Positions 9,431-59,578 of a stretch of DNA of 64,000 nt are shown here, piece after piece. A program made the position numbers and the translations under genes. This DNA is from Terrabacter sp. Root85 (lineage in GTDB: Bacteria; Actinomycetota; Actinomycetes; Actinomycetales; Dermatophilaceae): assembly GCF_001429185.1 (NCBI RefSeq), contig NZ_LMIW01000008.1:1009169-1073168 (forward strand), in the 5' to 3' direction. The notes beneath the pieces are model-generated. The model saw nothing but the letters and a program-made list of their open reading frames with translations. It ran no database searches and was not told the origin of the DNA. How positions within the stretch are numbered: the stretch's first letter is position 1; every line of letters begins with the position of its first letter.

Positions 9431-9438
9431 CAGTCACC

Positions 9439-14597: not shown

Positions 14598-14659
14598 GCC
14601 GTCCTGGGCCCGGTCGGTCCGGCACCGCGGGCCACCCTGACCCGCGTCGCGCAGACCCG

Positions 14660-14726: not shown

Positions 14727-14757
14727 GCGGGGGCTCGGGGCTGGCACGATCGGGTGC

Positions 14758-15777: not shown

Positions 15778-15807
15778 CGGGCGCAGCACCATTGACCCGG
15801 CGGTGCG

Positions 15808-17061: not shown

Positions 17062-17067
17062 GGCCGC

Positions 17068-17073
17068 AACGTA
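17068..17073 (-). promoter_or_regulatory. -10 box (TACGTT) for kynU
   Basis: On the minus strand TACGTT ends 6 nt before the kynU ATG and no ribosome site is visible, the spacing expected for a leaderless transcript. Confidence 0.5.
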
Positions 17074-17176
17074 TCCGGTGGCATCGTGCCGATGTCAGGG
17101 CCGCCTCCGCGGACGTCTGGCATCCGAGACGGTTCTCGCTGCCCGACCCGTGGCGCGTCCGTCACGACGAGCGCTC

Positions 17177-17182
17177 TACGCT
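17177..17182 (+). promoter_or_regulatory. -10 box (TACGCT) for pdxT
   Basis: TACGCT ends 6 nt before the GTG at 17189, the same geometry as at rel, tyrA and the MBL gene. It supports the upstream start of pdxT as a leaderless start. Confidence 0.5.
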
Positions 17183-17188
17183 GACCCG

Positions 17189-17941
17189 GTGAGCACCATC
17201 AGCACCATCCCCGGCACGACCGCCGACCCCGCCGCGGACCCCGCCGTGGACCCTGGCGCCGACCGTCGCGCCGAAGGCGTCGGCGTGCCGCGCATCGGCG
17301 TCCTCGCCGTCCAGGGCGATGTCAGCGAGCACCTCGCAGCCCTCACCGCGCTCGGCGCCGAGGGCGTCACGGTCCGGCGTCCGGCCGAGGTCGAGGCCAT
17401 CGACGGCCTCGTCATCCCCGGTGGCGAGTCGACGGTCATGGACAAGCTCGTCCGCGCCTTCGACCTGTGGGAGCCCCTGCTGCGGCGCATCGCCGAGGGC
17501 ATGCCCGCCTACGGCTCGTGCGCCGGGATGATCATGCTCGCCGACCGCATCGCCGACGCGCGTCCCGACCAGCAGACGCTCGGGGGTCTCGACATCACGG
17601 TGCGGCGCAACGCCTTCGGCCGTCAGGTCGACTCCTTCGAGCAGGACCTCGACTACGCCTGGGGCGACCGCTCGACGACCGGCACGGTGCACGCCGTCTT
17701 CATCCGCGCCCCATGGGTCGAGCAGGCCGGTCCGGGCGTCGAGGTCCTCGCCCGCGTCAGCGAGGGCCCGGCCGCCGGTAGGATCGTCGCGGTCCGGCAG
17801 GGCAACCTCATGGCCACGTCCTTCCACCCCGAGGTGGGGGCAGACCGCCGGATCCACGCCGAGTTCGTCTCGATCGTCAGAGAGCACCGACTCCAGCAGT
17901 CGGGTGCACGCCAGTCACCGGAACGCGAGGACACTGCATGA
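17189..17941 (+). CDS. pdxT: Pyridoxal 5'-phosphate synthase glutaminase PdxT
   Basis: Class I glutamine amidotransferase that feeds ammonia to PdxS. It shows IPGGES, the nucleophile Cys in YGSCAGMI, and the His/Glu pair in SFHPEV. The annotated product is 250 residues, about 40-50 longer than typical PdxT because of an N-terminal Asp/Pro/Ala-rich extension. Two starts are possible: GTG 17189, with a -10 box 6 nt upstream (leaderless), or GTG 17285, with a GAAGG site 7 nt upstream, which would give a normal-length protein. It ends in a 4-nt ATGA overlap with yebC. Confidence 0.93.
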
Positions 17942-44307: not shown

Positions 44308-44381
<74 letters not shown>

Positions 44382-44386
44382 CCGAA

Positions 44387-44428
44387 AAACCGCCTCTGAC
44401 CTGCGGAAACGCAGGTCAGAGGCGGTTT
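44387..44428. terminator. Terminator after tRNA-Pro with GAAA tetraloop
   Basis: A 19-bp perfect stem (44387-44405 with 44410-44428) closed by a GAAA tetraloop, with A-rich and T-rich flanks. It would terminate the tRNA and perhaps also integrase transcription from the other side. Confidence 0.85.
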
Positions 44429-44485
44429 CGGTTTTGACGTGGATCTCCAGAATGGTTGTTTACTAGACGTAAACGATTTCGAGGC

Positions 44486-45667
44486 CTACGGATCCGAGCG
44501 CGCGTCGTCGCTCTCAGCGAGCCGCTCGAGGAGCTCGGAGAGGTCGGCTGAAACCGGAGGCTTTGCGATGTAGTGGTCCCGGGTCACCTGGCTTGAGGAG
44601 TGTCCGAGCTGGCGCGAGGCGAGCTCGGACGTAGTCGCCTCGGAGATCAGCGTCGCGACCGTCTTGCGGAAGGTGTGGGGCGTCACCCACTCATAGCCTG
44701 TGTCCTGCCGGATCTGCCGCCACCGACGTTCGATGTTGACGACCTGGTGCCAGGTGCCGTTGCGGGTTGCGAAGACGGCGTCGTTCTCGTTGGGTGTCGC
44801 GAACTCCCGGCGCACGCGCAGCAGCTCGGTGGCGAACCGGGGCAGGACTACGGTTCGCCGGCTGGCGTCCGACTTCGGCGTGGGCTTCCGATAGGTGCCC
44901 TTCCCTGTTTCGGTCTTGATCGTGCCCGACACCGTGAGCACCGGCAGGTCACCATCGAGGTCCAGGTCGCTCCAGCGCAAGGCGAGCACCTCGCCGATGC
45001 GGCAGCCGGTGGCGAGCATCAGGTCGATTATGTCGGCCATGTCGCGGGTGGCCTTCGGTCCGGGGCGGTCCGAGTTGACCCACCGGCGTACAGCGGCGCG
45101 GATCTCGACCAGGTCCTCTACCCGAAGCGCCTTGGTCTCCTGCTTCGGTCGGTGAACTCGGCTCGTCCCGCGGGCCGGGTTGGTCGGGATCGCATCGTGT
45201 CGGACCGCGAGGTCGAGCATGGCCCCAAGGACGACCTTGGCCTTGCGTTGCCGGTTCACGCTCTGATCGCGCAACCTCAGCAGGAGCCGATCGAGCCGCC
45301 CCGTGGTGGCCTCGCGGAGCTTCAGTCCACCGACACTGGGTAGGACCAGGTTGTCCAGCACCCGGCGGTACTCGTTGATAGTGGTCTGCTCGATCCGTCC
45401 TTCGGCCTCGAGACCGCTGATCCATTCGGTGGCGAGGTCGATCAGCCGGGTCTCTGCGGTGAGGAGCTCACCTGCTGGCGCGGTGCGCGTGCCCAGGACG
45501 TCTCGAAGCGCTCGCTCCGCAGCGGCCTTGCTCGGACCAGTCGCGGTGACGCGGCGCGTGTTGCCGTCGGTGTCACGGAACCGAGTCAGGGCTCGATAGT
45601 TGCCGTCGCGGATCTTCTCGGTGGTGATGGTCCCCCAGGTACCGAGGGGGAGTGGTGGCCTGGCCAT
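44486..45667 (-). CDS. int: Phage-type tyrosine integrase
   Basis: A 393-residue site-specific integrase. A small N-terminal arm-binding-like domain (about 1-60) is followed by a SAM-like core-binding domain (about 70-165) and a catalytic domain with Arg in GCRIGEVLAL, HTFRKTVATLI, LGHSSSQVTRDHY and the final Tyr in RDHYIAK. All catalytic residues are visible, so it may be active. Its 3' end faces tRNA-Pro, as in actinomycete integrative elements such as pSAM2 that use a tRNA-Pro. The excisionase-like gene lies 3 nt upstream on the same strand. Confidence 0.9.
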   Translation of the reverse strand: MARPPLPLGTWGTITTEKIRDGNYRALTRFRDTDGNTRRVTATGPSKAAAERALRDVLGTRTAPAGELLTAETRLIDLATEWISGLEAEGRIEQTTINEYRRVLDNLVLPSVGGLKLREATTGRLDRLLLRLRDQSVNRQRKAKVVLGAMLDLAVRHDAIPTNPARGTSRVHRPKQETKALRVEDLVEIRAAVRRWVNSDRPGPKATRDMADIIDLMLATGCRIGEVLALRWSDLDLDGDLPVLTVSGTIKTETGKGTYRKPTPKSDASRRTVVLPRFATELLRVRREFATPNENDAVFATRNGTWHQVVNIERRWRQIRQDTGYEWVTPHTFRKTVATLISEATTSELASRQLGHSSSQVTRDHYIAKPPVSADLSELLERLAESDDARSDP

Positions 45668-45670
45668 GGG

Positions 45671-45889
45671 CTACTCGCCCTCTGCGGGCTCGAGGTGCTC
45701 GACGATCCAGGCGTCGAGGTCCGCGCGGCGGTAGCGCAGGCAACCGCCCATCTTCACGGCGCGTGGTCCGAACCCGACCCGGCGTGTCCGCCAGGTGTAG
45801 ATCGTCGCCTTCGGGATGGCGAGGTAGGCCGCAGCCTCGTCGATGGTCAGGATCATGCTCACTTGGTTGGTGTCGACGGTGGTACTCAT
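45671..45889 (-). CDS. xis: Excisionase-like MerR/helix-turn-helix protein
   Basis: A 72-residue protein with a winged helix-turn-helix of the excisionase type (TIDEAAAYLAIPKATIYTWR, then LRYRRADLDAWI). ATG 45889 is chosen because AAGGAG lies 6 nt upstream; a GTG 21 nt earlier would include that site in the coding region. Such proteins bind att DNA and direct excision by the partner integrase. Only int and xis are present, without replication or transfer genes, so the element is reduced or a remnant. Confidence 0.82.
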   Translation of the reverse strand: MSTTVDTNQVSMILTIDEAAAYLAIPKATIYTWRTRRVGFGPRAVKMGGCLRYRRADLDAWIVEHLEPAEGE

Positions 45890-46126
45890 CGTGTGCTCCT
45901 TCGTGGTCACGAGGACAGGTTTGCCCTCGTAACAGAAGGTGTGCAGCCCTCACCGCGCGGCCTGTGGAGAATCGACCCCTAATCGAGCTTCTGGAGCGAT
46001 CGCCGATGCATCGCCGGGCGAACGGTCTCCTTGACCCCGACCGGCGAGACCTCGCGTGGAGCATCTGCCGCTCCGTTACGTCGGTTGTCGGGTTGCGATC
46101 GCGCTTGCTGTGTTTTGCGCTCTTAG

Positions 46127-46161
46127 CCAGAGGTCGCAGGTTCAAATCCTGCCCCCGCTAC
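46127..46161 (+). pseudogene. 3' fragment of an initiator tRNA (tRNA-fMet)
   Basis: The 35 bases from CCAG at 46127 to CTAC at 46161 match the 3' part of actinobacterial tRNA-fMet: the 3' strand of the anticodon stem, the AGGTC variable loop, the GCAGG-TTCAAAT-CCTGC T arm and the CCCCGC acceptor strand. The 5' half is absent. This is the kind of scar left when an element integrates in the tRNA 3' end, or a piece carried in an attP site. The tRNA identification rests on recalled consensus. A terminator follows. Confidence 0.7.
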
Positions 46162-46164
46162 GAA

Positions 46165-46202
46165 TTTCAGGCTCGGTTCCCTCTGGGGAACCGAGCCTGA
46201 AA
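46165..46202 (+). terminator. Rho-independent terminator after the tRNA-fMet fragment
   Basis: A 16-bp perfect stem (46165-46180 with 46187-46202), a 6-nt loop, then GTTTTCTA. It looks like the native terminator of a tRNA gene, supporting the view that the fragment came with its original downstream flank. Confidence 0.8.
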
Positions 46203-46317
46203 GTTTTCTAACTTGACTCGGTCATCACAAAGTCAGGCTTATGTGACCAACGCGCTCGCGATGCGGGTCACCTCGGCCCAGCCTCGTCCCGGGTGGCGTC
46301 GCCGCTACGACAGGGCG

Positions 46318-47343
46318 ATGAACACGCTCATGCTCGCCGCGCTGCCGGCCACCGCCCGCCCCGCCATCCCGCCCACACCCACCGACGACCCCGACCTGAC
46401 ACGCGCGGGGCTCACACCCGTCGATGCCGCCCGCATCGGCAAAGCCCTCGCCGCCGCCCGCACCGCCGGCACCCGGCGGCTCTACGACGTCGTCTGGGGC
46501 CAATGGCAACGCTGGTGCGCCGAACGGGGCGTCGCCGCCGTTCCCGCCGACCCACTCGCCGTGTGCGCCTACCTGACCGAACGCGCCGAAGCCGGACGCG
46601 CCACCGGCACCCTGGACATGGCCTGCACCGTCATCCGGCACGTCCACCGCACCACCGGCGCCGTCGACCCGATCGCGTCCGAAGCCGTCCGCCAAGTCCG
46701 CCGTGGACTGCGTCGTACGTACGGCGGCGCAGCCCGACGCCTCGCCAGGCCGCTGTCGGTCGAGGAGATCCGCCAGATCGTCGGCAGCATCGACCGCACC
46801 ACCCCGCACGGGATCCGCGACGCCGCGATCATCCTGCTCGGCTACGCCTCCGCCCTGCGGCGAGCCGAGCTCGTCGCGCTCGACCTCGCCGACATCGAGC
46901 ACAAGCCCGCCGGACTCGTGCTGCACATCCGGCAATCCAAGACAGACCAAGAGGGCCACGGCGAGCAGGTTGCCGTCGCCCACGGCCAGCACGCGCTCAC
47001 CGACCCGGTCGCCGCGCTCAACGCCTGGCGGGATCTGCGCGGCGAGACCCCCGGCGCCCTGTTCACCCGGATCTGGGGAAGCGCCATCAGCTCCGAACGA
47101 CTCTCGGGCCACGTCCCCGCCCGGATGCTCCGCTCCCGCGCCATCGCGGCCGGGCTCGACGGCACCCGCATCACCGCCCACTCCCTGCGCGCCGGACACG
47201 CCACCACCGCCGCGCTCGCCGGCGTACCGCTGAACCGGATCGCAGCGCAGACCCGGCACAAAGATCTCGGCGTGCTGGTCAACCGCTACATCCGGCCACT
47301 CGAAGCTCTCGAGAACACCTCCAGCAAGGACCTCGGCCTGTGA
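46318..47343 (+). CDS. Second tyrosine recombinase
   Basis: A 341-residue recombinase unlike the integrase at 44486. An N-terminal SAM-like domain (about 35-130) is followed by a catalytic domain with Arg in ASALRRAELVAL, Lys in SKTDQEG, HSLRAGHATTAA, TRHKDLGVL and the Tyr in VNRYIRP. All key residues appear present. The start is uncertain: ATG 46318 is used, but TTG 46213 or ATG 46261 are possible. It sits immediately upstream of a 5'-truncated fic gene, so the recombinase or its element probably interrupted or replaced that locus. Confidence 0.85.
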   Translation: MNTLMLAALPATARPAIPPTPTDDPDLTRAGLTPVDAARIGKALAAARTAGTRRLYDVVWGQWQRWCAERGVAAVPADPLAVCAYLTERAEAGRATGTLDMACTVIRHVHRTTGAVDPIASEAVRQVRRGLRRTYGGAARRLARPLSVEEIRQIVGSIDRTTPHGIRDAAIILLGYASALRRAELVALDLADIEHKPAGLVLHIRQSKTDQEGHGEQVAVAHGQHALTDPVAALNAWRDLRGETPGALFTRIWGSAISSERLSGHVPARMLRSRAIAAGLDGTRITAHSLRAGHATTAALAGVPLNRIAAQTRHKDLGVLVNRYIRPLEALENTSSKDLGL

Positions 47344-47368
47344 ACCTGGCGCACCGCCCCGATCGTCC

Positions 47369-47620
47369 GGACTCGACCTCGGCGACTTCGTAGCGCGACT
47401 CGCCGAACGATGGGGCGACCGGTCGCTCATCCACCCCTTCCGCGACGGCAACACCCGCACTCAGAGCGCCTGGGTCACCGCCATCGCCCACCGCGACGGC
47501 TACCACCTCGACTGGCCGAGCATCGACGTAGACCTGCTCAGTCGGGTACGTATCCACGCGGTCGCAGGGGCTACGTCGCCTCTTACGGACTTCCTAACGG
47601 CGCACCTGTCCTCAGATTGA
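47369..47620 (+). pseudogene. Fic-domain protein, 5'-truncated remnant
   Basis: A frame with no start codon reads LDLGDFVARLAERWGD, then HPFRDGNTRTQ, the Fic active-site motif, and HRDGYHLDW, typical of the helices after it, ending in TGA at 47618-47620. The N-terminal half of the domain is missing, although the catalytic His and Gly-Asn are intact. Full Fic proteins AMPylate targets and are often toxins. Here it is a broken gene directly after the second recombinase, and no antitoxin is visible. Confidence 0.7.
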
Positions 47621-47673
47621 TTCCGGGACCACCGTGGTCGGGGCTTCACAGGATTATTGTCGGACCCAACGGC

Positions 47674-47679
47674 TAGCGT
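47674..47679 (+). promoter_or_regulatory. -10 box (TAGCGT) for the Wadjet operon
   Basis: TAGCGT ends 7 nt before the GTG at 47687. No good -35 hexamer was found at the standard distance. It supports the GTG as a leaderless start over an in-frame TTG at 47657. Confidence 0.45.
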
Positions 47680-47686
47680 TCCTCGA

Positions 47687-49246
47687 GTGACCTCCGGTGC
47701 ACTCGATCCTCGCGAGCGTCAAACGCTCGGTGCGCTGCGCTATGCCGTCAACGAAGAGGCAGCGAGCTACCTCGCCATCATGCGGCTCTTCACCTCAGGC
47801 ATGAGCGGCTTCCTCTCGGATCAATCGGCTGCCGACATCGCAGAGCGCCTCGCCGCAGACGGCATCGAACTCGACCAGGACACCGTCGAGCAGCGCCTCT
47901 CGTACCTCGTCGAGCACGGCAACCTGGCGCGCAGCCCACGAGAGACCGAAGCCCGGAGCATTCGGGAATACCTCACCAACCGAGCGCGCTATCAACTCAC
48001 ACAGCGAGGCGAACTCGTCCACCGCCAGGTCGAGGAGCTTCTGCAGCACTCGGAGTCAGCGCGCGAGGTGTCCAGCGAAGTCCTCCCCGTCATCCTCACC
48101 GGCATCGAAGACTTCGTGAACAACGCGCGACGCGGATTCGACGACACCGACCCGCGTGAGCTCGCCGGACGGATCACCACGCTGTTTGCCCAGTTCGAGG
48201 TACTGGTCAACTCCACGCGGCAGTTCTACTCCTATCTCACCCAAGTGCTCACCCGATTCGACCTCGGTCGGGACGAGTTCGAACTGTTCAAAACCGCGCT
48301 CCTGGACTACCTCTCTCGGTTCATCGACGAGATCTCCCGGCACATGCCCCAAGTGGGCGACCGGCTCCAAGAACTCCGTCCGAACCTCGCGGAACTCTGC
48401 GAGCGTGCCAACACGGGAGAGCGGCTCGTCGGCATCGACGGCACCGCAGCACGTCGGGCTACCGGCCTCGAACCGGGCGACTGGGAAAGCCTCCACGCGT
48501 GGTTCGTTGGTTCGCCCGGCCGACGTTCCGATGCCGACAACGTCCGGGCACTTGCCACCGACGCAATGCGATCCCTCCTCGTGAACCTCAGGCGGATCGC
48601 CGCCGGAGCAGACCGTCAGCAGAGCCGATACGGCGATCTCACCCGACTAGCCGCATGGTTCGACACCAGCTCGGACGAGGACGCCCATGCACTGTGGGCA
48701 GCAGTCTTCGGTCTCTATCCCACGCGCCACCTTGCCTTCAAGGCCGAGTCGGACGACGAACCAATTCCAGCCACCCAGAGCTGGTGGACCGCTCCGGCCG
48801 CCGAAGTGCCCGTCGGACTTCGGATCCACGGCGACCGCACCGCGCGCGGACGGGCAGGAGCACGCGTCGACTTCACCGCGGCCAAGAACGCCCGGCTCGC
48901 GGAGCGCGCCAGGCAACAGCGGCGCCGCGAGGCAGCCTTGCGCGAACTCGCCACCCATGCAGGCACCCTGCGAGAAGCCCGCGTCAGCGATGACGCACGC
49001 GAGGTCTTCCTCGACCTCTACTCCACGGCACTCACGGGCTACGGGCGCCCCCTCGCGGCAGGTGCGACTGCCGAAACGACAACGCCCATCGGCCCACATC
49101 GGCTGACACTCGCCGTCGAGCGTGCCCCGGGGTCGACTGTCGCCATCGCCAGCCCCGCGGGGAAACTCGTTCTCCGCGACATCGAAATCAGGGTCAGTAT
49201 CGCCGCCGAGTCCGATGGTCAAAGGCAGATGGGATCCGGCGCATGA
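47687..49246 (+). CDS. jetA: Wadjet type II subunit JetA (DUF2397/TIGR02677 family)
   Basis: A 519-residue protein of the TIGR02677 type. The N-terminal region (ALRYAVNEEAASYLAIMRLF) and the following winged-helix-like segments with LSYLVEHGNLARSPRE correspond to the kleisin-like JetA of type II Wadjet. In the complex it would link the SMC-like JetC heads. The C-terminal third is rich in Arg and Ala and probably helical. It is the first of four genes, each overlapping the next by 4 nt. The family call rests on recalled family features and operon composition. Confidence 0.85.
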   Translation: MTSGALDPRERQTLGALRYAVNEEAASYLAIMRLFTSGMSGFLSDQSAADIAERLAADGIELDQDTVEQRLSYLVEHGNLARSPRETEARSIREYLTNRARYQLTQRGELVHRQVEELLQHSESAREVSSEVLPVILTGIEDFVNNARRGFDDTDPRELAGRITTLFAQFEVLVNSTRQFYSYLTQVLTRFDLGRDEFELFKTALLDYLSRFIDEISRHMPQVGDRLQELRPNLAELCERANTGERLVGIDGTAARRATGLEPGDWESLHAWFVGSPGRRSDADNVRALATDAMRSLLVNLRRIAAGADRQQSRYGDLTRLAAWFDTSSDEDAHALWAAVFGLYPTRHLAFKAESDDEPIPATQSWWTAPAAEVPVGLRIHGDRTARGRAGARVDFTAAKNARLAERARQQRRREAALRELATHAGTLREARVSDDAREVFLDLYSTALTGYGRPLAAGATAETTTPIGPHRLTLAVERAPGSTVAIASPAGKLVLRDIEIRVSIAAESDGQRQMGSGA

Positions 49247-50454
49247 GTGTCGTTCCCGAGCGCCCTGCGCCCGCGCCCGACTTGTACGCCGAAGCCGACG
49301 TACGACGAGCTGCCCGCGCGCTCCTGCAGACACCACTCCTGCACAGCGAGCAGCACCACGACGATCTTGCTCTCGTTCGCCGTCACCGAGACGAGCTGAC
49401 CAAACTGTTCGCCGACGGTCTCGGCTACCGACTCGTCGTCGAACCGGCGCTCGCCCGTCTCTATAAGACCGGCATCGGCCGGGACGGACGCCGAGGCCTT
49501 CGCCGACGCAACGGAAACCACTTCACACCCCGCGCCTACGCCATGGTGGCGCTCGTCCTGGCAGCACTCACCCGGTCACGACAGCAAATCATGATCGACG
49601 AACTTGTCGCGGGCGTCCGGTCCGCGGCAGTCGACGCCGGAGTAGATGTTGACCTCGACGCACTGTCGGAGCGACGCGTACTTCACGCCGCGCTGATCGC
49701 GCTGATCCATATCGGCGTGGTGAGCGAGCGCGACGGCGACCTGGAGCACTGGGCCGAGCGACGCACCGACTCATTGCTCGACGTTCACCGCGACCGACTG
49801 GCCGTCCTCGTCGCAGCGCCCCTAAGCCGATGCGCGACACCCGAAGAAGTCTTCGAGGACGCGTCGCTCCCGTCCTCGGCCGGGGGCTCCCGCGTCCCGA
49901 TCCGCCGACGCCTCGTCGAGCACCCCATCCTGTCCGTCGACGGCCTCACCGACGAACAACGTGGCTGGTGGCGCCGGAACAGGCACCGCGAGGTCGAGTG
50001 GTTCAGCAGTACTCTAGGTCTCGACCTGGAGCTGCGCGCAGAAGGTGCAATCGCCATCGACCCGAGCGGAGAGCTGACCGACCGCGCATTTCCTGGCACT
50101 GGATCCGCAGCCCACTTCGCACTCCTGCTCCTCGCCGAGTTGGTCGAAGAGGTGCGCTCCGACAACCAGACTGACCCAACTTCAGGCCCGTGGGCACGCC
50201 TGGCAACCTCAACCGCGCGAACGGCCGGCGACAAAGTGTTCCAGGCATGGAAACGCGGACTCCGCAAGGAACATCGCGAGAACCCAGACGCCGTCTTCGA
50301 CGAAGCGATCGAGATCCTTGCCGACGTAGGACTCGTCCAACGAGACGCAGACGGGCTTCGCGTCCACGCCGCCGCAGCCCGCTACGCACCCAAAGCGCAG
50401 CTCATCGAGGCACAGCAGGCTGCCCCGACCCTTTTCGACGAGGACCACTCATGA
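49243..50454 (+). CDS. jetB: Wadjet type II subunit JetB (DUF2398/TIGR02678 family)
   Basis: A 403-residue protein of the TIGR02678 type, expected to act as the KITE-like (MukE-like) winged-helix partner of JetA. Characteristic features are the N-terminal AARALLQTPLLHSEQH segment, RNGNHFTPRAYAMVALVLAA, and a later HPILSVDGLTDEQRGWW segment. No catalytic motif is seen, as expected for a structural subunit. Coupled by ATGA overlaps to jetA and jetC. Confidence 0.85.
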   Translation: MSVVPERPAPAPDLYAEADVRRAARALLQTPLLHSEQHHDDLALVRRHRDELTKLFADGLGYRLVVEPALARLYKTGIGRDGRRGLRRRNGNHFTPRAYAMVALVLAALTRSRQQIMIDELVAGVRSAAVDAGVDVDLDALSERRVLHAALIALIHIGVVSERDGDLEHWAERRTDSLLDVHRDRLAVLVAAPLSRCATPEEVFEDASLPSSAGGSRVPIRRRLVEHPILSVDGLTDEQRGWWRRNRHREVEWFSSTLGLDLELRAEGAIAIDPSGELTDRAFPGTGSAAHFALLLLAELVEEVRSDNQTDPTSGPWARLATSTARTAGDKVFQAWKRGLRKEHRENPDAVFDEAIEILADVGLVQRDADGLRVHAAAARYAPKAQLIEAQQAAPTLFDEDHS

Positions 50455-53400
50455 CCACAACCTTCGTCCGTTCCGCGGTACGGGAGACAGCCGACACCGA
50501 CAGGCGGTTTCGGCTCAGCCGCGCCGGCATCCTCAACGTCTGGCAGTACGACGACCAGGTCTTCGACTTCGCCGACGGCCGCTTGCTGCTCAGAGGAGCC
50601 AACGGCGCCGGAAAGTCCAAGACACTCGAGATGCTGCTTCCGTTCGCCCTCGACGGCGACAAGGCCAGAATCACAGCCTCCGCCAAGCACCACACCAGCC
50701 TCCTCTGGCTCATGACGGACGGCTTCGAGGGCAACGCACGGGTCGGCTACATCTGGGTGGAGTTCCTCCGCACCGACGACGCCGGACAGCCGGAGGCATT
50801 CACCTGCGGCATCGGAATCCGAGCATCGGAATCCCAACGGACCGCCACTGCCTGGCACTTCGCCACCCACCGCCGCGTCGGACACGACCTTGCCCTCGAA
50901 GACGCGGGCGGACCGCTTTCGCGAGGTCGTCTGGAGGACGCAATCGGAGCTGACGGCCAAGTCTTCGAGAAGGCCGCCGCGTTTAAGGAACACGTCGGTC
51001 GCACGCTCTTCGGGCTCGACCCGAGCCAGTACGACGAGGTGCTCCGGCTTCTCTACTGGCTCCGACAGCCTCAGGTCGGGGAAGACATCGACCCCGGCAA
51101 GCTGGCCCAGTACCTCTCCCAGGCCCTCCCACAGATCGACGAACTGGCCATCCGCAAGGCAGGGGACACCTTCGACGAACTGGTTGCCTTCGGCGAGCAG
51201 ATCGAACGTCGCGCCTCGGCAGCGGAAGCTCTCTCCGTCCTCGCTGACGCATACGCCGACTACGCCCGAGCAGCCGTTGCGCAACGCGCCGCCAAGCTCG
51301 CAGAGATCCTCACGACCGAGCGGAACCTGCGGCGGCAACTGAGCAAGGCAGAAGCGACGCTCCAACGCGTCACAACCGAACGCAAGGAAGCCGAGGACTC
51401 GCTCAAGCAATCAACCGCCGATGCTGAGGCTGCCGGAACGCGGCTGCGTGCTCTGCAGGAGAGTCCAGAAGCACGGGATCAGCGCAGATTGAGCGACTTG
51501 GCCGAACGCGCCGAACGGGAGGCTGCCGAGTCGAAGCGAGCAGGCGAACGGGTCCAACGACGCCGCGAGGAGCACGGGCGCAAGGCCGAGGCACTTGCCA
51601 TTGCCGCCCAACAGTTGCGCGAGATGACCCGGGCCTTTACCGACGAACTGGCCGACACAGTTCGCCGACATCAGGAGTCTGTGCCCGATTCAGTCATGGT
51701 CTCGCCCGTGTCGTTGGTGGCCATCGACCTCACCAACCATGCCGACGTCGCAGCCCTCGGTTCCGGGTTAGACGATGCACGCTTGACGATCACGAAGGCC
51801 GACGGTTCGGTCGGAGTTCGGGCCGCGGCAGTCACAGCGGTAGTTGAGGCAACGGCACGATACAAGGACGCCCGGCGCATTGAGGAAGAGGCGCAGCGGC
51901 GGGCCGACGAGGCCGAGTCCCGCTGGGAGGACGCCCGACAGCGACGCTCGGCTTCGGAGGGTGCGGCGATCCAAAGCGAGATCGACTTTCGCGCATCACT
52001 GACCAACTGGGCGGGACTTCCCGAAGCAGTGCACGTGGACCTGCCGACGGAGTTCGACGCAGAGACGCTCGACGCCTTCCCCGAACTCGTTCGAACCGCC
52101 GTGTCCGGCCCGCTGGCCACTCTTCGCGCTGAGCTTCAGAGCGAGTCCACGAAGCGCGACAACGCGGACGTGCAGGTCCGAGCCTTGGAGCAGAAGCGAA
52201 GCGAAGTCGAGGCCGAACGCGATCCTGCGCCGCCGCAACCATCGCTCCGTCGAACTCCGCGGCCAGACGGCCACTCCTTGTGGCAGGTCATCGACTTCAC
52301 GACCGGACTCGACGAGCCCGTTCGCGCCGCCATTGAAGCGGCACTCCAGTCCGCGGGCCTCCTCGACGCCTGGCTCCGACCTGGCGGCCGACTTCTCGAC
52401 CCCGGACTGCACGACACATTGCTCGTAGGTCACACGCCGGCAAGCGGACCGACGTTGTCCGATGTGCTCCACGTAGACCTGCCGGCCGGCTCCGATGTCT
52501 CGGTCGAGGATGTGCGTGCTGTGCTCGACGCAGTCCACCTCGGTGACGACCCTGACGCAGAGGCTGCCATCGGCGCCGACGGTACGTGGCGCCTCGGGCC
52601 GGCACACGGACGAGCCGCAAAGGAGGCGCCGCAGTACATCGGAGCAACGGCTCGGGCACACGAGCGAGCACGCCGCCTCGCCGAGATCGACCAAGAACTC
52701 CAACGCCAACGAGACACCCGAGACATCGCGAAGGAGTCTGCCGAACGGGCGGGAGGCACGATCGCGGCGCTCGACTCCTGGGTGCTCGGCCGCCCCACCG
52801 ACAGCGGGCTGCGCGAAGCATGGACTCGCCTAACGGAACAGATCGAAGCGGAGCTGCGCGAGGAGTTGGCCAATCGCGACGCTCAGCGCGAGGCCCACGG
52901 GCGGCGTGACGAGACAGCCCAAGCACACTCCTCACTCACTCGACTTGCCCAAGAGCACGACCTTCCCGTGGACAGTTCCTCACTGGCAGCTCTCAAAGAA
53001 CGGCTGGATCACCTCCGCGCCGATCTGGACGCTCTGGGGAAGCTAATACCGCACCTGCGCCGCAACCTCGACCGATGGTCATCAGATGCGGTGTCCGTCG
53101 ATGAGGCGCTCCGCGAGTTGGAATCCGAGAAGGAAGAGCACGCCGCGGCCGTCGATCGCGCTGGCCAAACCCAGGCCGAGCTCGACGCCCTCCGTGAGGC
53201 GGTTGGTGCCTCGGTGCAGGAGTTGGAGCGCAAGATCGCTCTCGCAAGGGAGTCGAAGGCATCTCACGAGGCAGCCAAGAAGACGGCCGACACGCGAGTA
53301 CGCGAGCTAGCGGAAGCGTTGGGCGAAGCACGTAGCGGTTTGACGACCGCACAGGAGCGCCTCGCATCCCACGCCCCGGCAAGAGCCGAAGCACTCGCAT

Positions 53401-54515
53401 GGTTTGCGCAACTTGCCCAAGCACCAGGACTCCTTGCCGCCGCCGAGGTGGCTTCGGCTGAACCATTCCTCCAGGCAGAGAACATCGTTGGCGACGCACC
53501 CATCCCAGACTCCATCACGCAAATAGTTCGCGAACTCGCCGACCCATCGACTGGGGACATCACACGGGCTACCGACCGTGTGTGGGCCGCTCACCGCGAC
53601 GCTGAGAGCGGCCCTGCGGCCGACCACCAGCTCGCGATGGCACGATACGGCGACCTCCTTGCCGTCACGGGACGAGACGACGCGGGTGAGGCCCCCGTGG
53701 TGGTAATCGCAGCCAGAGTTACCGCCGCGGTCGAGCACGACCGGACACTCTTGACCGAACGCGAGAAGAAGCAGTTCGAGCAACACATCCTCGGCGAACT
53801 CGGAGACGCTCTGCGAGCCTGCAGGCGCGACGCAGACGAACTGGTCACCGCCATGAACGACCTCCTCGGTGAGGTGCGCACCTCTCAAGGCATCCGACTC
53901 CGTCTGAAGTGGGACCTCCGCGACGACATACCCGCTGAAGCGCGCGCGGCCGTCGATCTGCTTGCGCAGCCAGTCGGCGCCCTCGTTCCGGAAGAGCGAG
54001 CTTCGCTGCGCGATGCCCTGCACGGACTGATCGAGACTTCGCGAACGTTGAATCCCGAACTCTCCTACAGCGAGCATCTCGGGTCGGCGCTGGACTATCG
54101 GACCTGGTCGGAGTTCTCGATCCGGTACACGAGGCCGGAGAAGTCGGGCACTTGGGAACGCCTCCACCGGCGTTCAGCCCTCTCCCAGGGCGAGCAGAAG
54201 GTGCTCTGCTACCTGCCGCTATTTGCCGCCGCTGCAGCCCACTTCACGTCCCTTGCCGGTGCAGCTCCACACGCTCCTCGCCTTGTACTTCTCGACGATG
54301 CGTTCCCGAAGATTGACGTCAGGACCCACCCACTCCTCTTCGGCTTGCTCGTCCAGCTCGACCTCGACTTCGTCATCACCAGCGAACGGCTATGGGGATG
54401 CCACGACACTGTTCCGTCTCTCGCCATCTATGAAGCGTTGCGTAACCCCACTCAGCGCGGCATTGCGCAGTACGAATCCCGTTGGGACGGCCGAACCCTC
54501 CATTCGATCGGATGA
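50451..54515 (+). CDS. jetC: Wadjet type II SMC-like ATPase JetC (TIGR02680 family)
   Basis: A 1354-residue SMC/MukB-like ATPase. Walker A is GANGAGKS at residues 49-56. Long coiled coils rich in Arg, Glu and Ala run from about 270 to 570 and 820 to 1060. Between them lies a hinge-like or insert domain (about 570-800). The ABC signature LSQGEQ is at 1244-1249 and Walker B is LVLLDDAF, with Asp 1282 and Asp 1283. All motor motifs are intact. In characterised Wadjet systems this motor extrudes plasmid DNA loops and positions JetD to cut small circles. The family assignment to TIGR02680 is from overall layout and context. Confidence 0.9.
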   Translation: MTTTFVRSAVRETADTDRRFRLSRAGILNVWQYDDQVFDFADGRLLLRGANGAGKSKTLEMLLPFALDGDKARITASAKHHTSLLWLMTDGFEGNARVGYIWVEFLRTDDAGQPEAFTCGIGIRASESQRTATAWHFATHRRVGHDLALEDAGGPLSRGRLEDAIGADGQVFEKAAAFKEHVGRTLFGLDPSQYDEVLRLLYWLRQPQVGEDIDPGKLAQYLSQALPQIDELAIRKAGDTFDELVAFGEQIERRASAAEALSVLADAYADYARAAVAQRAAKLAEILTTERNLRRQLSKAEATLQRVTTERKEAEDSLKQSTADAEAAGTRLRALQESPEARDQRRLSDLAERAEREAAESKRAGERVQRRREEHGRKAEALAIAAQQLREMTRAFTDELADTVRRHQESVPDSVMVSPVSLVAIDLTNHADVAALGSGLDDARLTITKADGSVGVRAAAVTAVVEATARYKDARRIEEEAQRRADEAESRWEDARQRRSASEGAAIQSEIDFRASLTNWAGLPEAVHVDLPTEFDAETLDAFPELVRTAVSGPLATLRAELQSESTKRDNADVQVRALEQKRSEVEAERDPAPPQPSLRRTPRPDGHSLWQVIDFTTGLDEPVRAAIEAALQSAGLLDAWLRPGGRLLDPGLHDTLLVGHTPASGPTLSDVLHVDLPAGSDVSVEDVRAVLDAVHLGDDPDAEAAIGADGTWRLGPAHGRAAKEAPQYIGATARAHERARRLAEIDQELQRQRDTRDIAKESAERAGGTIAALDSWVLGRPTDSGLREAWTRLTEQIEAELREELANRDAQREAHGRRDETAQAHSSLTRLAQEHDLPVDSSSLAALKERLDHLRADLDALGKLIPHLRRNLDRWSSDAVSVDEALRELESEKEEHAAAVDRAGQTQAELDALREAVGASVQELERKIALARESKASHEAAKKTADTRVRELAEALGEARSGLTTAQERLASHAPARAEALAWFAQLAQAPGLLAAAEVASAEPFLQAENIVGDAPIPDSITQIVRELADPSTGDITRATDRVWAAHRDAESGPAADHQLAMARYGDLLAVTGRDDAGEAPVVVIAARVTAAVEHDRTLLTEREKKQFEQHILGELGDALRACRRDADELVTAMNDLLGEVRTSQGIRLRLKWDLRDDIPAEARAAVDLLAQPVGALVPEERASLRDALHGLIETSRTLNPELSYSEHLGSALDYRTWSEFSIRYTRPEKSGTWERLHRRSALSQGEQKVLCYLPLFAAAAAHFTSLAGAAPHAPRLVLLDDAFPKIDVRTHPLLFGLLVQLDLDFVITSERLWGCHDTVPSLAIYEALRNPTQRGIAQYESRWDGRTLHSIG

Positions 54516-55726
54516 CCGGCGTTCCGACGTGGATCACCGACCCAGCTCTCGCCGACGCTTGGTCGAAGATCCGAGAACGATTTGAGAAGGCAGGACTCGT
54601 AGCAGTCGGGCGCGTCGAGATTGAGACCGCCACCCGAGACAAGCGTCATGCGCTCGGTGCACTCCTGGGACGTTCAGTCACGCGAAGCGCCATGCGAGTG
54701 GATCTCGCCGACCTGGATCAGCGGCTGCGCGACCGCTCTGGAATGGGCGGGTTGCTGGAGGTCCTGACCGCCATCCACGGCGAAGCTCCCAAGGATCGAC
54801 CTGCCGCCAGGGCGACAAGGAATGCTGCACGTCAGAGGCCCTTGGACAGAGCGGCCGAGTTGGTCGACGCTCCCTGGGCCGATACCTGGATCGAAGGTCT
54901 GCGGCGCACCGGCCTTCTGACGGCCAGAGAGGACGCGCTCCGCATCGTCGAGGATGCGGCCAAAGTCCTCAACGAGCTCGTCGCTCCTTCGGTTCGCCCG
55001 CAGTCCCGCGTCGAGCTCGCTGCCCGGTTGTTGGGCAACGCCCACGCATTGGATGCCGATCGCGTGCTGCACCGCGTTGTCATTCGCGGATTGGCCGCCG
55101 CTGCCGGCGTGGGTGTGCCTGAAGCAACCCCGGGTGTCGTCGGCCTGTGGTCGAGGTTCGGGATCGAGCCAGATCTTCTCTCGCGCACATGCCTGGTCCT
55201 TGGGCTTGGCGCGCCGGGCGTAGCCGGGGAAAGACTGGGGCTCGCGGCTGAGTCGGGGGACCCGGTCCACATCACCGAGTGGGACCTGCGTCGATTGGGC
55301 GCCTTCGATGTCGGGGACCGCTACGTGCTGGTCTGCGAGAACCCGCGGGTTCTAGAAGCGATCGCCGAGACCGGCGACTTGGGTCACGTTGTTGTCTGTA
55401 CGTCCGGTGAGCCCAATCTGGTCGTTACGGAGATCCTGGGACGCCTCCACGAGGGAGGCGAGCACCTGCGCTACCACGGCGACTTCGACTGGCCCGGAAT
55501 CGGGATCGCCAATCGCGTCAGAGAGAACTTCGGCGCGGAACCATGGCTCATGGCGGCTGACGACTATGTTGCTGCCGTGCGCCGGGAGAACCTTCCGCTC
55601 GGACCGCACGTCATCGAGCCGACGTGGGACGCCGAACTCGGAGCGGCGATGCGTCTCCACGGTCGGGCAGTCCACGAGGAGTCGATGCTCGCTCAGATAC
55701 TTGGGCACCTCGCCACGTCGACCTGA
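54512..55726 (+). CDS. jetD: Wadjet type II nuclease JetD (DUF2399/TIGR02679 family)
   Basis: A 404-residue protein with a helical N-terminal part and a C-terminal Toprim-like nuclease domain. The metal-binding Glu lies in VLVCENP (Glu 276), and the DxD pair is DFDWPG (Asp 324 and Asp 326). SGEPN lies between them. This is the topoisomerase VI A/Toprim-type endonuclease of Wadjet that cleaves small circular DNA. All three acidic residues are present, so it should be active. It overlaps jetC by 4 nt and its stop codon touches a 15-bp direct repeat. Confidence 0.88.
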   Translation: MTGVPTWITDPALADAWSKIRERFEKAGLVAVGRVEIETATRDKRHALGALLGRSVTRSAMRVDLADLDQRLRDRSGMGGLLEVLTAIHGEAPKDRPAARATRNAARQRPLDRAAELVDAPWADTWIEGLRRTGLLTAREDALRIVEDAAKVLNELVAPSVRPQSRVELAARLLGNAHALDADRVLHRVVIRGLAAAAGVGVPEATPGVVGLWSRFGIEPDLLSRTCLVLGLGAPGVAGERLGLAAESGDPVHITEWDLRRLGAFDVGDRYVLVCENPRVLEAIAETGDLGHVVVCTSGEPNLVVTEILGRLHEGGEHLRYHGDFDWPGIGIANRVRENFGAEPWLMAADDYVAAVRRENLPLGPHVIEPTWDAELGAAMRLHGRAVHEESMLAQILGHLATST

Positions 55727-55739
55727 TCGGTCATCGAAA
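55725..55739. repeat. 15-bp direct repeat, copy 1 (after jetD)
   Basis: GATCGGTCATCGAAA begins at the last two bases of the jetD stop codon and recurs exactly at 59390-59404. Similarity continues imperfectly for about 18 more bases (GTCACCGAAGTGATCGAACG here, GGTCATCGGAAACGAACGG there). The pair flanks the NACHT gene. Confidence 0.7.
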
Positions 55740-55794
55740 CGTCACCGAAGTGATCGAACGCCATCACCCGCACCCGTGTTCGGAGAACTGAGAC

Positions 55795-58700
55795 TTGAGT
55801 AGAGCAGGGCAAGCCGACGCCGTAGGAGGTGTCTTCCGTGTGGTTGCGGCGGCCTATCTCGCCGTACATGCCCTCCGTGAACAGCCAGTCGCGGGACTCG
55901 ACCTTCCGAGCGACGTGCACGCCGCTCGTCTGGACTTCGAGACCGATGACCCGACCGACGACCTCGTAGCCACGATGTCCGACGGCAGTCGTTGCTTCAT
56001 TTCGGCGAAACGCGCCGTCGGAAACGACCGACACCTCAAGTCGACCGTTGAGGGCTGGGTCGCTCAGATGAGCACGGTTCGCGGTGGGGATGTTCTGGTG
56101 ATCGCTGCCGAGGAGCTGAAAGGTCCTGTCAAGGACCTTCCAGAAGCACTGCGTCGACGCCGGGACGGTCGAGAGCTGGCAGTCCGGCACCAGAAGGCGA
56201 TCACGGCCGTCACCAAGAGCGTGCCCGTCGGCCTCCGCGACGACATGCTCAATCGAACCCGAGTGCTGCACATCCCCATGGCTACCGGGACGAGCCAAAC
56301 CCGCGCGCTCATGGAGTCGTTGGCGAGCTACCTGGTCGAGGACGGGAAGGGCACCGCCGTCGTCAGCCTGCTCGCCGACGCCTTCCATCGTCAGTCGGGC
56401 GAAGCATCGGGCAGCACCGTCGAGGACTGGGTCCAGACGGTCCAAGGCTCGCGACCACTCATCGCTGACGGTTCAGGCCCGACCGGGATGCGCATAGCCG
56501 CGAGTCTTGCGGCGCTCGACGAGTACAAGCGAGTCCTCATCAGTCGTCGCGGCAGGATCGACTTGACGCTGCTTGCCGAGGATCTACCTCCGGTGACCGT
56601 TGACGACCTCATCGACGGCCTCCGGGTCGAGACCGCCGAGAACCAGCGCGGAGATGGCGACAGCTTCCTCCGCGTCATCCGTCGATGGCGACGCATGCTG
56701 CTGGTTGGCCAACCCGGCACCGGCAAATCGGTCGCCCTGCGCGAGCTGGCTGCACAATGCGCCAGCGACCCGCACGCGCCGCTTCCCATCGTCGTGCACC
56801 TTCCTAGCCTGCTACAGCCGAGCCCTAGCGACCTGTCCGCTGATCTCCTGATCAGCTCGGCCGCTGAGCGGGTCGCGAACCCGGAATTACGGTCTCCACT
56901 GATGCGGGCGATGCGCCAAGAGCTGGACTCAGGCACTGCCATTCTGCTGTGCGACGGTCTTGACGAGTGTGGCCCCAAGGCGGCCTGGATAGCCCAACAA
57001 ATCAAGGATGTTCTCGACGGCTTCGCCCCACGAGTCGGGATTGTCGTCGCCACCAGGGCCAATGCTGTTGCCGCGGCCACGCGAATAGGGCTGCCTCGCG
57101 TCCACTTGAATCCGCCCCAGGATCTGAGCACCACAGTGCAGAGCGTCCTGAGGACGTGCTCCGAGACCCGGATCCAAGCTGGCGGACGTGAGAGCTGGCT
57201 CGCCATTCGGCGCAAGTGGATCGAGGACGCACGCAACCAGCACCCCGAGCTGTTTCGAGTGCCACTTCTCGCCGTGTTGCTGGCACTGATCTGCGCCGAC
57301 ACCGCCGAGGCAGAACTCCCCAAGGGTCGCGCGGTGTTGTTGCACAATGCCGTGGAGCAATCGGTGACGCGCTGGGAGGCCCAACGAGCCGTCGCGGGGG
57401 CGAGGCCCTGGGCGACGGACCTTACCGGCGGCATGCTCCTTGACGGGTACGTAGTCCTTGGACGCTTGCTGGACTCAGGTGCCGAGCCATCCAGAAACGA
57501 GGCGGTCGAGGCCCTGACGACCCTGCTGCAGGACCGGGATAGCTGGAACCTTGCGCCACGGCGAGCACGTGAGGTCGCCACAGATGTCCTTCGCTTCTGG
57601 GACGAGCACGTCGCCGTGTTCGTCGTGAACGCGTCGGATCGCATGAGCGCCCGCAGCAAGGTCTTCACCGAGATCGCAACCGCCATGTGGACCCTCACCG
57701 CAATCGATGATGAGATCGCCTCCTGGCTCGCGGATGTTCTGCCCTACACGGATTCCGACGGTGCGATCGGGTTGGCGGCCGGTCTCAACCAACGGGTCGT
57801 TGAGTGCATGCTCAGCGCTTCAGAGATGGGCGGGGCGGCCAGCATGCTGCTCGGTGAGTTGGTGGTCCGGGAGGTAATTGAGCTCGACGAGGACCAGACC
57901 ACTCGACTTCTCGAGAAGCTTCGACTGGCCGTGGAGCGGGCAGTGGCAGGGGACCCCGAGCCCGACCGGACGCCGCGTGAGCCCAGCCGCCTGTGGTCGA
58001 TGCTTCGAGGACGTCGCTATCAGACACAGCCCGTCTGGAACTACGTCGAGCTCGCATGCAGCCTGAAACTGTTGTCAGCAGCCGACCGAGCGACACGAGG
58101 GGAGATCCTCGCAACGGCGGAACTCGCTGCAGCGGACGCCGCGATCGCGAACGCACTCTGCGCACTGACCGACGCAAAGACAGATCGCGAGCCGCTGAAT
58201 GATCGAGCCATCGAACTGGTCAAGGGTGTGATGCAACAGCCGCTCCCCCCTGACGGCGAGCTGATCCGGCAGTCCCGGCGGCGATCGGCAATAGTTGGCG
58301 GTGCACCGCTTGCGCCCGGAGTCGCTCAGGTGGCGCTCGAGGGAGTCCCGCATCTCTCCGCACTCCCGGAGGGGTTCGGACGATGGGTCTTCGACGTCAG
58401 CATGAAAGCAAACCACGGCTACGGGGACAAGATCCGCGCCGCACTACAAGCCAAGGGCGTCAGTACCAACGAATGGTGGTCCGAGCGAAGCACCTTCAGA
58501 AAACTTGGAGCGTGGCGAGATGACCATGACCGCTACGAACGGATGCTCCTGGAAGACATCGCATCGTTGGCGCCAAGCGACGAAACCGGGGCCAGCCCAC
58601 TCGCAAGGGACCGGTATTGGTCGCTGACCTCCGTCGGAGATCTGCTGGCGGCGACCAACTACGCCAGTGTGAGTGTGCAGGACTTCTCCCGCGCCTTCGT

Positions 58701-59385
58701 CCACGACGACATGGCATCACGCAGAGGCTGGCTCGGCGCGATAGCCGACGCGTATCGCATCGATAAGGCAGAGGCAGCCCGGGAGGCCGCGTGGATGCTT
58801 GACCAGTTGAGTCAGAGCATCGGCGGCGAGCACGGGCTGAACGATCACTGGTTCGTCGCGAGCATGTCTCCTCAACGAGGCCCGGCGCTGGACGATGATG
58901 CCGTCGCACGGCTCGCCCGTGAGCAACACGATGCGCTGCTCGGAAGCCTCCGAGCCGACTCAGACTGGATCGCATGGTCCGCAGCAGAGGTGCTCATCAA
59001 CGTTCCGGTCCCGACCTGGGACGCCGCCCAGCTGTTCGCGACGGACATGACGGGATGGCCTCTCGATAGAGCAGCCCTTCTGTACATGGTCGCCATCCTC
59101 TCCGCGGGCGATGGAAGCGTCGACCGGTTCGCCGCAGCCGCGACTTCCGAGGCCCCTGAGTACCGCACGGCCGCCCAATACTGCCTGTCCGTCATGGGAG
59201 AACTCGACGCAGACGGCTCTGTCGACACTCAACTGCGGCAAGACCCGGATCTGACCGTGCGTCCCAAGGGCAGCCGCGCCGATGAACCGCACGCCTCGTA
59301 CTGGACCTGCAACGACTGCCGTACTCGGAACGACCCCGAGACCGAAGACTGCCCGGGCTGTGAGCACGGTACGAGGCCCGACTGA
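55795..59385 (+). CDS. NACHT-type NTPase with nuclease-like N-terminus and RanBP2-type zinc finger
   Basis: A 1196-residue protein of a kind found in antiphage defence. Residues 1 to about 130 look like a PD-(D/E)xK nuclease-like domain of the Cap4/Mrr sort: DD at 55-56 and ISAKR with Lys 72 stand in the usual D...(E/Q/S)xK positions. The NTPase core has Walker A GQPGTGKS (305-312) and Walker B LLCDGLDE (384-391), a NACHT/STAND pattern. A long helical region follows with no recognised motif. The last residues fit W-x-C-x2-C-x3-N-x6-C-x2-C exactly (Trp 1170, Cys 1172, 1175, Asn 1179, Cys 1186, 1189), a RanBP2-type zinc finger. The start is TTG 55795 after GGAG. It lies 68 nt after jetD. Confidence 0.8.
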   Translation: MSRAGQADAVGGVFRVVAAAYLAVHALREQPVAGLDLPSDVHAARLDFETDDPTDDLVATMSDGSRCFISAKRAVGNDRHLKSTVEGWVAQMSTVRGGDVLVIAAEELKGPVKDLPEALRRRRDGRELAVRHQKAITAVTKSVPVGLRDDMLNRTRVLHIPMATGTSQTRALMESLASYLVEDGKGTAVVSLLADAFHRQSGEASGSTVEDWVQTVQGSRPLIADGSGPTGMRIAASLAALDEYKRVLISRRGRIDLTLLAEDLPPVTVDDLIDGLRVETAENQRGDGDSFLRVIRRWRRMLLVGQPGTGKSVALRELAAQCASDPHAPLPIVVHLPSLLQPSPSDLSADLLISSAAERVANPELRSPLMRAMRQELDSGTAILLCDGLDECGPKAAWIAQQIKDVLDGFAPRVGIVVATRANAVAAATRIGLPRVHLNPPQDLSTTVQSVLRTCSETRIQAGGRESWLAIRRKWIEDARNQHPELFRVPLLAVLLALICADTAEAELPKGRAVLLHNAVEQSVTRWEAQRAVAGARPWATDLTGGMLLDGYVVLGRLLDSGAEPSRNEAVEALTTLLQDRDSWNLAPRRAREVATDVLRFWDEHVAVFVVNASDRMSARSKVFTEIATAMWTLTAIDDEIASWLADVLPYTDSDGAIGLAAGLNQRVVECMLSASEMGGAASMLLGELVVREVIELDEDQTTRLLEKLRLAVERAVAGDPEPDRTPREPSRLWSMLRGRRYQTQPVWNYVELACSLKLLSAADRATRGEILATAELAAADAAIANALCALTDAKTDREPLNDRAIELVKGVMQQPLPPDGELIRQSRRRSAIVGGAPLAPGVAQVALEGVPHLSALPEGFGRWVFDVSMKANHGYGDKIRAALQAKGVSTNEWWSERSTFRKLGAWRDDHDRYERMLLEDIASLAPSDETGASPLARDRYWSLTSVGDLLAATNYASVSVQDFSRAFVHDDMASRRGWLGAIADAYRIDKAEAAREAAWMLDQLSQSIGGEHGLNDHWFVASMSPQRGPALDDDAVARLAREQHDALLGSLRADSDWIAWSAAEVLINVPVPTWDAAQLFATDMTGWPLDRAALLYMVAILSAGDGSVDRFAAAATSEAPEYRTAAQYCLSVMGELDADGSVDTQLRQDPDLTVRPKGSRADEPHASYWTCNDCRTRNDPETEDCPGCEHGTRPD

Positions 59386-59389
59386 AATC

Positions 59390-59404
59390 GATCGGTCATC
59401 GAAA
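59390..59404. repeat. 15-bp direct repeat, copy 2 (after the NACHT gene)
   Basis: An exact copy of 55725-55739, starting 5 nt after the NACHT stop codon. With copy 1 it brackets the NACHT gene as a possible cassette. Confidence 0.7.
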
Positions 59405-59445
59405 GGTCATCGGAAACGAACGGCAACTGTTCCGAGCGCTTCCGA

Positions 59446-59451
59446 TACAAT
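59446..59451 (+). promoter_or_regulatory. -10-like box (TACAAT) before a tRNA-like element
   Basis: TACAAT inside CCGATACAATTG is a strong -10 match in a GC-rich genome, with no clear -35 element. Transcription would run through the hairpin at 59467-59496 and the tRNA-like element. Confidence 0.35.
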
Positions 59452-59494
59452 TGATGTCGTCCAATGGGGAACCTCCTCTATAACCCGAGGTTTC

Positions 59495-59578
59495 CCAGAG
59501 GGACCCGAAGTCTCAGGTAGTCCGGGACCGGCCTCCGATCTTGTCCAGAGGATTAGGGTTCAAATCCCTGCTTCTGGT
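59495..59578 (+). pseudogene. tRNA-like remnant
   Basis: An 84-nt segment whose ends pair as a 7-bp acceptor-like stem (CCAGAGG 59495-59501 with CTTCTGG 59571-59577, one G-U). The 3' side has a T arm TAGGG-TTCAAAT-CCCTG. A D-arm-like GGAC/GTCC stem and GG-TA loop are also present, but the anticodon arm region has no proper 5+7+5 loop. It is probably a decayed or mobile-element tRNA or an att remnant; I cannot assign an amino acid. Confidence 0.35.

Follow-up and report, generated by a model that had tools for sequence, protein, structure and literature searches.

Avs (AVAST) proteins of the STAND class combine a nuclease, a STAND nucleoside triphosphatase (NTPase) and a long helical sensor. 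RanBP2-type zinc fingers have been studied almost wholly in eukaryotes and are familiar chiefly from animals and plants. Among bacterial NACHT proteins, bNACHT25 is described as carrying an N-terminal PD-(D/E)XK domain that is required for defence, and its activation as being accompanied by DNA degradation (PMC12169576). In this report, we analyse a stretch of 64,000 nucleotides from Terrabacter sp. Root85 (contig NZ_LMIW01000008.1; hereafter, the window), in which one gene encodes a protein with a nuclease-like N-terminus, a NACHT NTPase core and a RanBP2-like zinc finger at its extreme C-terminus. Because of the analogy with bNACHT25, we interpret this protein as a one-gene receptor resembling nucleotide-binding leucine-rich-repeat (NLR) proteins. 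We predict, with a probability of roughly 55%, that it is a single-gene NLR-like nuclease defence protein of Actinomycetes in which a helical solenoid senses and the finger docks.

The reading frame is open on the forward strand from a TTG codon at position 55795 to a stop codon at 59383-59385 and encodes 1196 residues. The TTG start is supported, because the proteins of relatives begin with M/V/L-S-R-A-G-Q at the same place. This frame and the motifs named within it by the original prediction, which was made from the letters of the window (K72 in SAKR, GQPGTGKS, LLCDGLDE and the C-terminal zinc-finger signature), lie where they had been placed. The Pfam model NACHT (PF05729) matches residues 299-427 of the window protein with 30.7 bits, against a cut-off of 26.7. 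GQPGTGKS contains K311, LLCDGLDE contains D387, D390 and E391, and all four residues are invariant in 12 of 12 aligned members of the family. The window protein thus has the Walker A motif and the acidic Walker B motif of NACHT and STAND proteins.

An initial genome scan yielded eight loci, namely a 99% identical copy in Nocardioides rubriscoriae (locus L002) and seven relatives in Streptomyces, Glycomyces and Streptomonospora that are 44-48% identical. Two further relatives, 26% and 29% identical, are plasmid-borne (one in Rhodococcus, one in Streptomyces), and relatives overall are 24-49% identical to the window protein. The distribution of the family in Actinomycetes is patchy: it is found in 1 of 58 related genomes (its own genome alone), 8 of 394 from the class Actinomycetes (its own included), 9 of 343 from a single genus (that of genome G166; in two of the nine, the copies are split or fragmentary) and 2 of 396 in a phylum-wide sample, both previously found. 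We aligned 22 non-redundant members and placed them in a tree. For this set, duplicates, recognized by their place or by the length of the contig, were merged (L005=L052, L006=L053, L012/L025=L051, L013=L040, L014=L041, L015=L042, L016=L043, L017=L044, L018=L045, L024=L049, L026=L052, L027=L053, L028=L050, L029=L046, L030=L048 and L033=L047), and we excluded the near-identical L002, L001/L036 (copies of the window gene itself) and, as broken genes, L031/L034 and L032/L035. These broken copies are split or fragmentary family genes in two genomes of the genus of G166 (G486 and G621, respectively), and one fragment has an internal stop. The copy in Glycomyces luteolus (L008) lacks approximately its first 150 residues. 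Equal-length open reading frames (401 residues) lie upstream and downstream of it, at 128-1333 and 9144-10349 of that locus, and both resemble the same L043 genes; the copy looks as if it had been cut by insertion sequences.

The RanBP2-type signature is given as W-x-C-x(2,4)-C-x3-N-x6-C-x2-C (PMC12383448). Residues W1170, C1172, C1175, N1179, C1186 and C1189 of the window protein form W-x-C-x2-C-x3-N-x6-C-x2-C exactly; the exact signature is found in 10 of the 22 members. In the six frames of the window, the signature is found a single time, and none of 20,000 shuffled versions of the protein contained it (a relaxed form appeared in 1 of 20,000); conservation of the finger among members is better evidence against chance than these shuffles. 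When a profile built from eight family fingers was compared with all PDB chains, Nup153 was the best match (E = 3.8e-8), and the 14 matches with E below 0.001 were chains of Nup153, YAF2, TAB2, TAB3 and Npl4, all of them RanBP2-type. The next match was ribosomal eL40, another small zinc protein (E = 0.0016). The Rhodococcus finger alone matched ZRANB2 first (E = 0.011). When the profile was run on 197 genomes from the class (E <= 1e-4), three genomes had matches, and only in this NACHT family.

Residues 1-130 are likely to be a PD-(D/E)XK nuclease domain, as predicted from conserved motifs. Of the pattern expected in such nucleases, D ... (D/E/Q)-x-K, the residues D55/D56 and K72 (in S70-A71-K72-R73) do not vary among the 15 N-termini compared (15 of 15), and neither does E49. 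At position 70, however, 12 of the 22 members, including the window's clade, have Ser and nine have Gln; it is unreadable in the truncated L008. A hidden Markov model (HMM) of the N-terminus was compared with 461 frames, taken from L007 and from 14 reference loci (12 of Mrr and two of Cap4 type). It matched an Mrr-type restriction nuclease (an Mrr_cat protein) in L068 with E = 2.6e-5, in an alignment covering the Q-x-K motif and onward, and it also recovered the family member in L007. In a structural model of low confidence, the succession of strands and helices was taken as support for a PD-(D/E)XK-like fold. The PADLOC candidate PDC-M54A matches approximately the first 95 residues of the window protein (E = 2.5e-13), and an N-terminal match to it is found in five of six relatives tested, extending in L018 to approximately residue 255. 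The original prediction is partly supported, in that the same protein has an N-terminus resembling a nuclease, a NACHT core and a finger of RanBP2-like type. Searches of Pfam, PADLOC-DB, NCBIfam and PHROGs revealed no named family that has this set of domains; the PADLOC candidate PDC-M54A matches the N-terminal part only.

The finger, noticed originally in a single sequence, recurs in 20 of the 22 non-redundant members as W-x-C-x2-C followed by a second ligand pair. All four Cys are present in 17 of these 20 fingers. The other three (L046, L047 and L048) have His at or near the last ligand, a C3H-like variant, and such a swap is as expected if the finger holds a metal. The Asn position is Asn in 11 fingers, Gln in six, and Val or Phe in three. 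Identities were calculated over the ten finger-bearing rows of a 12-member alignment; each of these ten has W1170 and all four Cys. Averaged over pairs, identity is 0.42 for the nuclease, 0.41 for the finger core, 0.39 for NACHT and 0.37 for residues 446-640, and it is lowest across residues 641-1169 (0.23-0.27), with 0.23-0.26 in the solenoid and 0.27 in the linker before the finger. Ratios of nonsynonymous to synonymous substitution rates (dN/dS), calculated for six Streptomyces copies by using our own Nei-Gojobori script, are 0.10 for the nuclease, 0.12 for the finger (a rough value, given its 24 codons) and 0.18-0.41 elsewhere, with the peak of 0.41 at residues 901-1035. Judged by these comparisons, the finger has long belonged to the family and has been kept by purifying selection. 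That it is as conserved as the enzyme parts suggests that it matters for the working of the protein. The original observation is right, and it is stronger than the sequence alone could tell.

Between the NTPase and the finger, alpha-repeat and HEAT chains are matched by the profile of the 12-member alignment (whole-sequence E = 2.8e-5; best stretch 0.003, at approximately residues 1036-1155). HEAT proteins also top the list of structural matches.

We propose the following scheme as a working model. By extension from NLR biology, the NACHT core would in the resting state keep the N-terminal PD-(D/E)XK-type nuclease inactive. The long HEAT-like solenoid (residues 617-1155), as its divergence suggests, would recognize something made or caused by an invader, and the NACHT core would exchange nucleotide and oligomerize. 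The clustered nuclease domains, to judge from the domain and its motif, could then cut host or invader DNA and so stop the infection. The finger would be a zinc-binding protein-docking module that acts independently of the invader, by binding an invariant partner or the protein's own nuclease or NACHT part, and its docking may set the threshold or the geometry of activation. Because the finger is constant beside a diverging solenoid, docking on something constant, be it a cellular component or another part of the protein, is preferred to direct phage sensing. A rather unlikely extension is a receptor with two inputs, in which the solenoid would read the changing invader, the near-constant finger would read a second, constant signal of the cell, and the nuclease would fire only if both agree. 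The second signal would be a host factor, perhaps a protein tag or an actinomycete protein linked to translation or to the ribosome.

Several observations weigh against the proposal that this protein is a sensing nuclease with a docking finger. The full-length predicted structure is poor, with a mean predicted local distance difference test (pLDDT) score of 53, and proves no fold. Identity in the connector (residues 126-290) is also low, at 0.28, so divergence alone does not mark the solenoid as a sensor. Profile-profile scores of the N-terminus are weak; its HMM matched none of the other 13 of the 14 Mrr and Cap4 reference loci; Pfam Mrr_cat is touched by 1 of 15 N-termini (E = 0.035), and no Pfam model matched the N-terminus of the window protein. 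Ser replaces Gln of the Q-x-K motif in 12 of the 21 readable members, which could weaken catalysis. For the finger, PF00641 (RanBP) scores below its cut-off of 27 in eight of eight fragments (10.7 bits for the window and at best 23.1, for L015); at E <= 10, five of these fragments were without any match to it and three were matched. Zinc models of TFIIS, DUF7129 and Sec23 type outscore PF00641 on the window's fragment, all of them below their own cut-offs. The finger is, moreover, dispensable in some members, in that 2 of the 22 (L011 and L043), on separate branches of the tree, lack it and keep the nuclease motifs; L046, the nearest relative of L011 (69% identity), carries a finger. To these points is added the small number of codons behind the finger's dN/dS.

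The original prediction viewed the finger as a possible sensor of phage RNA or protein, and it could in principle trigger the receptor by binding single-stranded RNA, as does ZRANB2, or a ubiquitin-like protein, as do Npl4-type zinc fingers (NZF). In its favor, the Cys spacing and fold class are the same, and ZRANB2, Npl4 and TAB2 are among the sequence matches of the finger. However, the residues used for such binding are nearly absent. For the ZRANB2 finger, a stacking aromatic and two guanine-reading Arg are described as positions that read single-stranded RNA (PMC6384913), and for ubiquitin-binding NZF fingers, a Thr-Phe pair is described (PMC12383448). We mapped these positions onto the family by way of the ZRANB2 alignment of the Rhodococcus finger. 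Among 20 fingers, the stacking aromatic is found in none, the first Arg in two and the second in one, and the window finger has none of the three; of the further ZRANB2 residues, neither Asn is found in any finger, and the Asp before Trp is found in one. The Thr of the ubiquitin pair occurs in 0 of 20 and the Phe in 1 of 20, and the window finger has neither. The net charge of the finger core is negative in 14 of 20 fingers, zero in three and positive in three (L007, L008 [Glycomyces] and L041). Also, a sensor engaged in an arms race should vary, and this finger varies little beside a diverging solenoid. The finger is thus unlikely to be a variable phage sensor, and its proposed role as a sensor of RNA or ubiquitin, which these sequence comparisons do not support, is improbable. 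Less easily set aside, although still unlikely, is the idea that the finger only caps the solenoid or stabilizes the protein and has no ligand. Its position at the extreme C-terminus and the tolerated loss in L011 and L043 agree with this idea. Nonetheless, the variable linker (identity 0.27) parts the finger from the solenoid. A cap should also change along with the solenoid underneath it, whereas the finger is the better conserved of the two.

Two other explanations concern the effector and the neighboring genes. The N-terminus of the window's clade, with S-x-K in 12 members as opposed to Q-x-K in nine (and the N-terminus missing in one), might no longer be a nuclease and might act by binding alone. 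We consider this improbable, given that E49, D55, D56 and K72 stay invariant and that the nuclease region has the lowest dN/dS of the protein (0.10). Also, the Cap4_nuclease domain (54 bits) of L056, in another genome (G094), reads S-V-K where Q/E-x-K is usual, as matched by eye at apparently the same motif, so Ser at this position may not be unique to the window's clade. The least credible explanation is that the NACHT gene is an accessory of the adjacent Wadjet type II system, next to which the original prediction had placed it. The NACHT gene does follow jetD by 68 bases, on the same strand and within one mobile element, in two genomes. However, no Wadjet gene was found in the flanks (1.8-10 kb a side) of the 21 other family loci, so the conserved linkage to JetABCD that an accessory should exhibit is lacking. 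JetA is present in 6 of 12 family-bearing genomes and missing from the other six, and in the five besides the window's own it lies on a different contig or at a distance of over 1 Mb.

Table 1. Features of the NACHT gene and of the mobile element that carries it (positions in the window).
Feature	Positions	Strand	Basis and remarks
Whole gene, NLR-like protein, 1196 residues, TTG start	55795..59385	+	Open frame; start position common to relatives
PD-(D/E)XK-like nuclease domain (predicted), residues 1-130	55795..56184	+	Invariant E49, D55, D56, K72; deeper relatives have Q in place of S70
Helical connector of low conservation, residues 131-286	56185..56652	+	Conservation, low-confidence model; boundary approximate
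NACHT NTPase core, residues 287-480	56653..57234	+	Walker A K311, Walker B D387/D390/E391
Helical region after NTPase, residues 481-616	57235..57642	+	Secondary structure of model; boundary approximate
HEAT-like helical solenoid, residues 617-1155	57643..59259	+	Profile and structure searches; lowest conservation in the protein, putative sensor
RanBP2-like C4 zinc finger and short tail, residues 1170-1196	59302..59382	+	Sequence profile, conservation, dN/dS
Mobile element (13.3 kb): integrase, Wadjet type II JetABCD, NACHT gene	46221..59571		99.1% identical to N. rubriscoriae L002
Tyrosine recombinase of element	46213..47343	+	Pfam PF00589, PHROG integrase
Wadjet type II jetA, jetB, jetC, jetD	47657..55726	+	PADLOC JetA2/B2/C2/D2
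tRNA 3'-end-like repeat, left edge of element	46118..46168	+	90% identical over 51 columns to right edge in L002

The recombinase, the Wadjet genes and the NACHT gene very probably travel as one element, because positions 46221-59571 are 99.1% identical to L002 while the flanks differ. The DNA compared on either side is unlike the flanks of L002, except for the 51-base tRNA 3'-end-like repeat, which is found at opposite edges. In L002, the integrase of the element matches in two frames (positions 427-1543 of that locus), and this copy of the element may no longer be mobile by itself. A second integrase (44486-45667, minus strand) adjoins tRNA-Pro at 44308-44383 of the window, and a 20-base piece of the 3' half of this tRNA is repeated at 46132; a small element may therefore lie next to the Wadjet/NACHT element, at 44308-46168.

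Among 248 neighboring open reading frames, no cluster of similar genes was found in more than 3 of 22 loci. Two scans, each of ten proteins selected from these frames, identified a relaxase, a DUF6602/PD-DExK protein and, from Glycomyces and Streptomyces, three additional STAND proteins; several of the proteins examined had no match. We count these neighbors, together with the patchy distribution and the mobile element shared with Wadjet, in favor of the proposed defence protein. In Glycomyces xiaoerkulensis (L007, positions 3480-17467), the family member resides between a 1740-residue NACHT protein, which has its own Q-V-K, and a 1243-residue nSTAND-like protein, so that three STAND proteins occur in a row.

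If the finger gates activation, it would offer a handle on how bacterial NLR-like proteins avoid firing in the absence of an invader and on which constant components of the cell they watch. If two inputs were in fact read, the finger, eukaryote-like in type, would bind in a new way and serve as a licence check in bacterial immunity. Among the papers listed in our literature search, none stood out as describing a NACHT or STAND defence protein that bears such a finger; subscription journals were mostly outside the coverage of the search, and a prior description is possible.

Compared with known systems, the window protein shares with PDC-M54A its N-terminal approximately 95 residues, and the rest of those models (1621-1657 residues) is unmatched. 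Avs3 has the same layout of nuclease, STAND NTPase and long helical sensor, and it is the best Foldseek match of the full-length model (E = 2.4e-4), but a template-modeling score of 0.11 and the pLDDT of 53 forbid a claim about the fold. No Avs chain is among the sequence matches of the window protein to solved structures, and we know of no RanBP2-like finger in Avs proteins. With the fingers of Nup153, YAF2, TAB2, Npl4 and ZRANB2, the family has in common the Trp and the C4 spacing, with profile E values of 4e-8 to 1e-3 for the best 14 matches. It differs from them in lacking nearly all residues that read RNA or ubiquitin, in missing the PF00641 cut-off and in replacing Asn by Gln (6 of 20) or by Val or Phe (3 of 20). 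In overall plan, the window protein resembles bNACHT25 and bNACHT32 (clade 6), which are described as having an N-terminal PD-(D/E)XK DNase effector, a central NACHT and a C-terminal sensing region; theirs, however, is an NCH1 helical C-terminus, and the word "zinc" appears nowhere in the main text of that report (PMC12169576). Some CxxC motifs of YprA-family defence helicases are said to resemble RanBP2-type fingers (PMC12458937, preprint). These too are prokaryotic defence proteins with a RanBP2-like CxxC, but they are helicases, carry the finger inside a beta-barrel insert and are not NLR-like.

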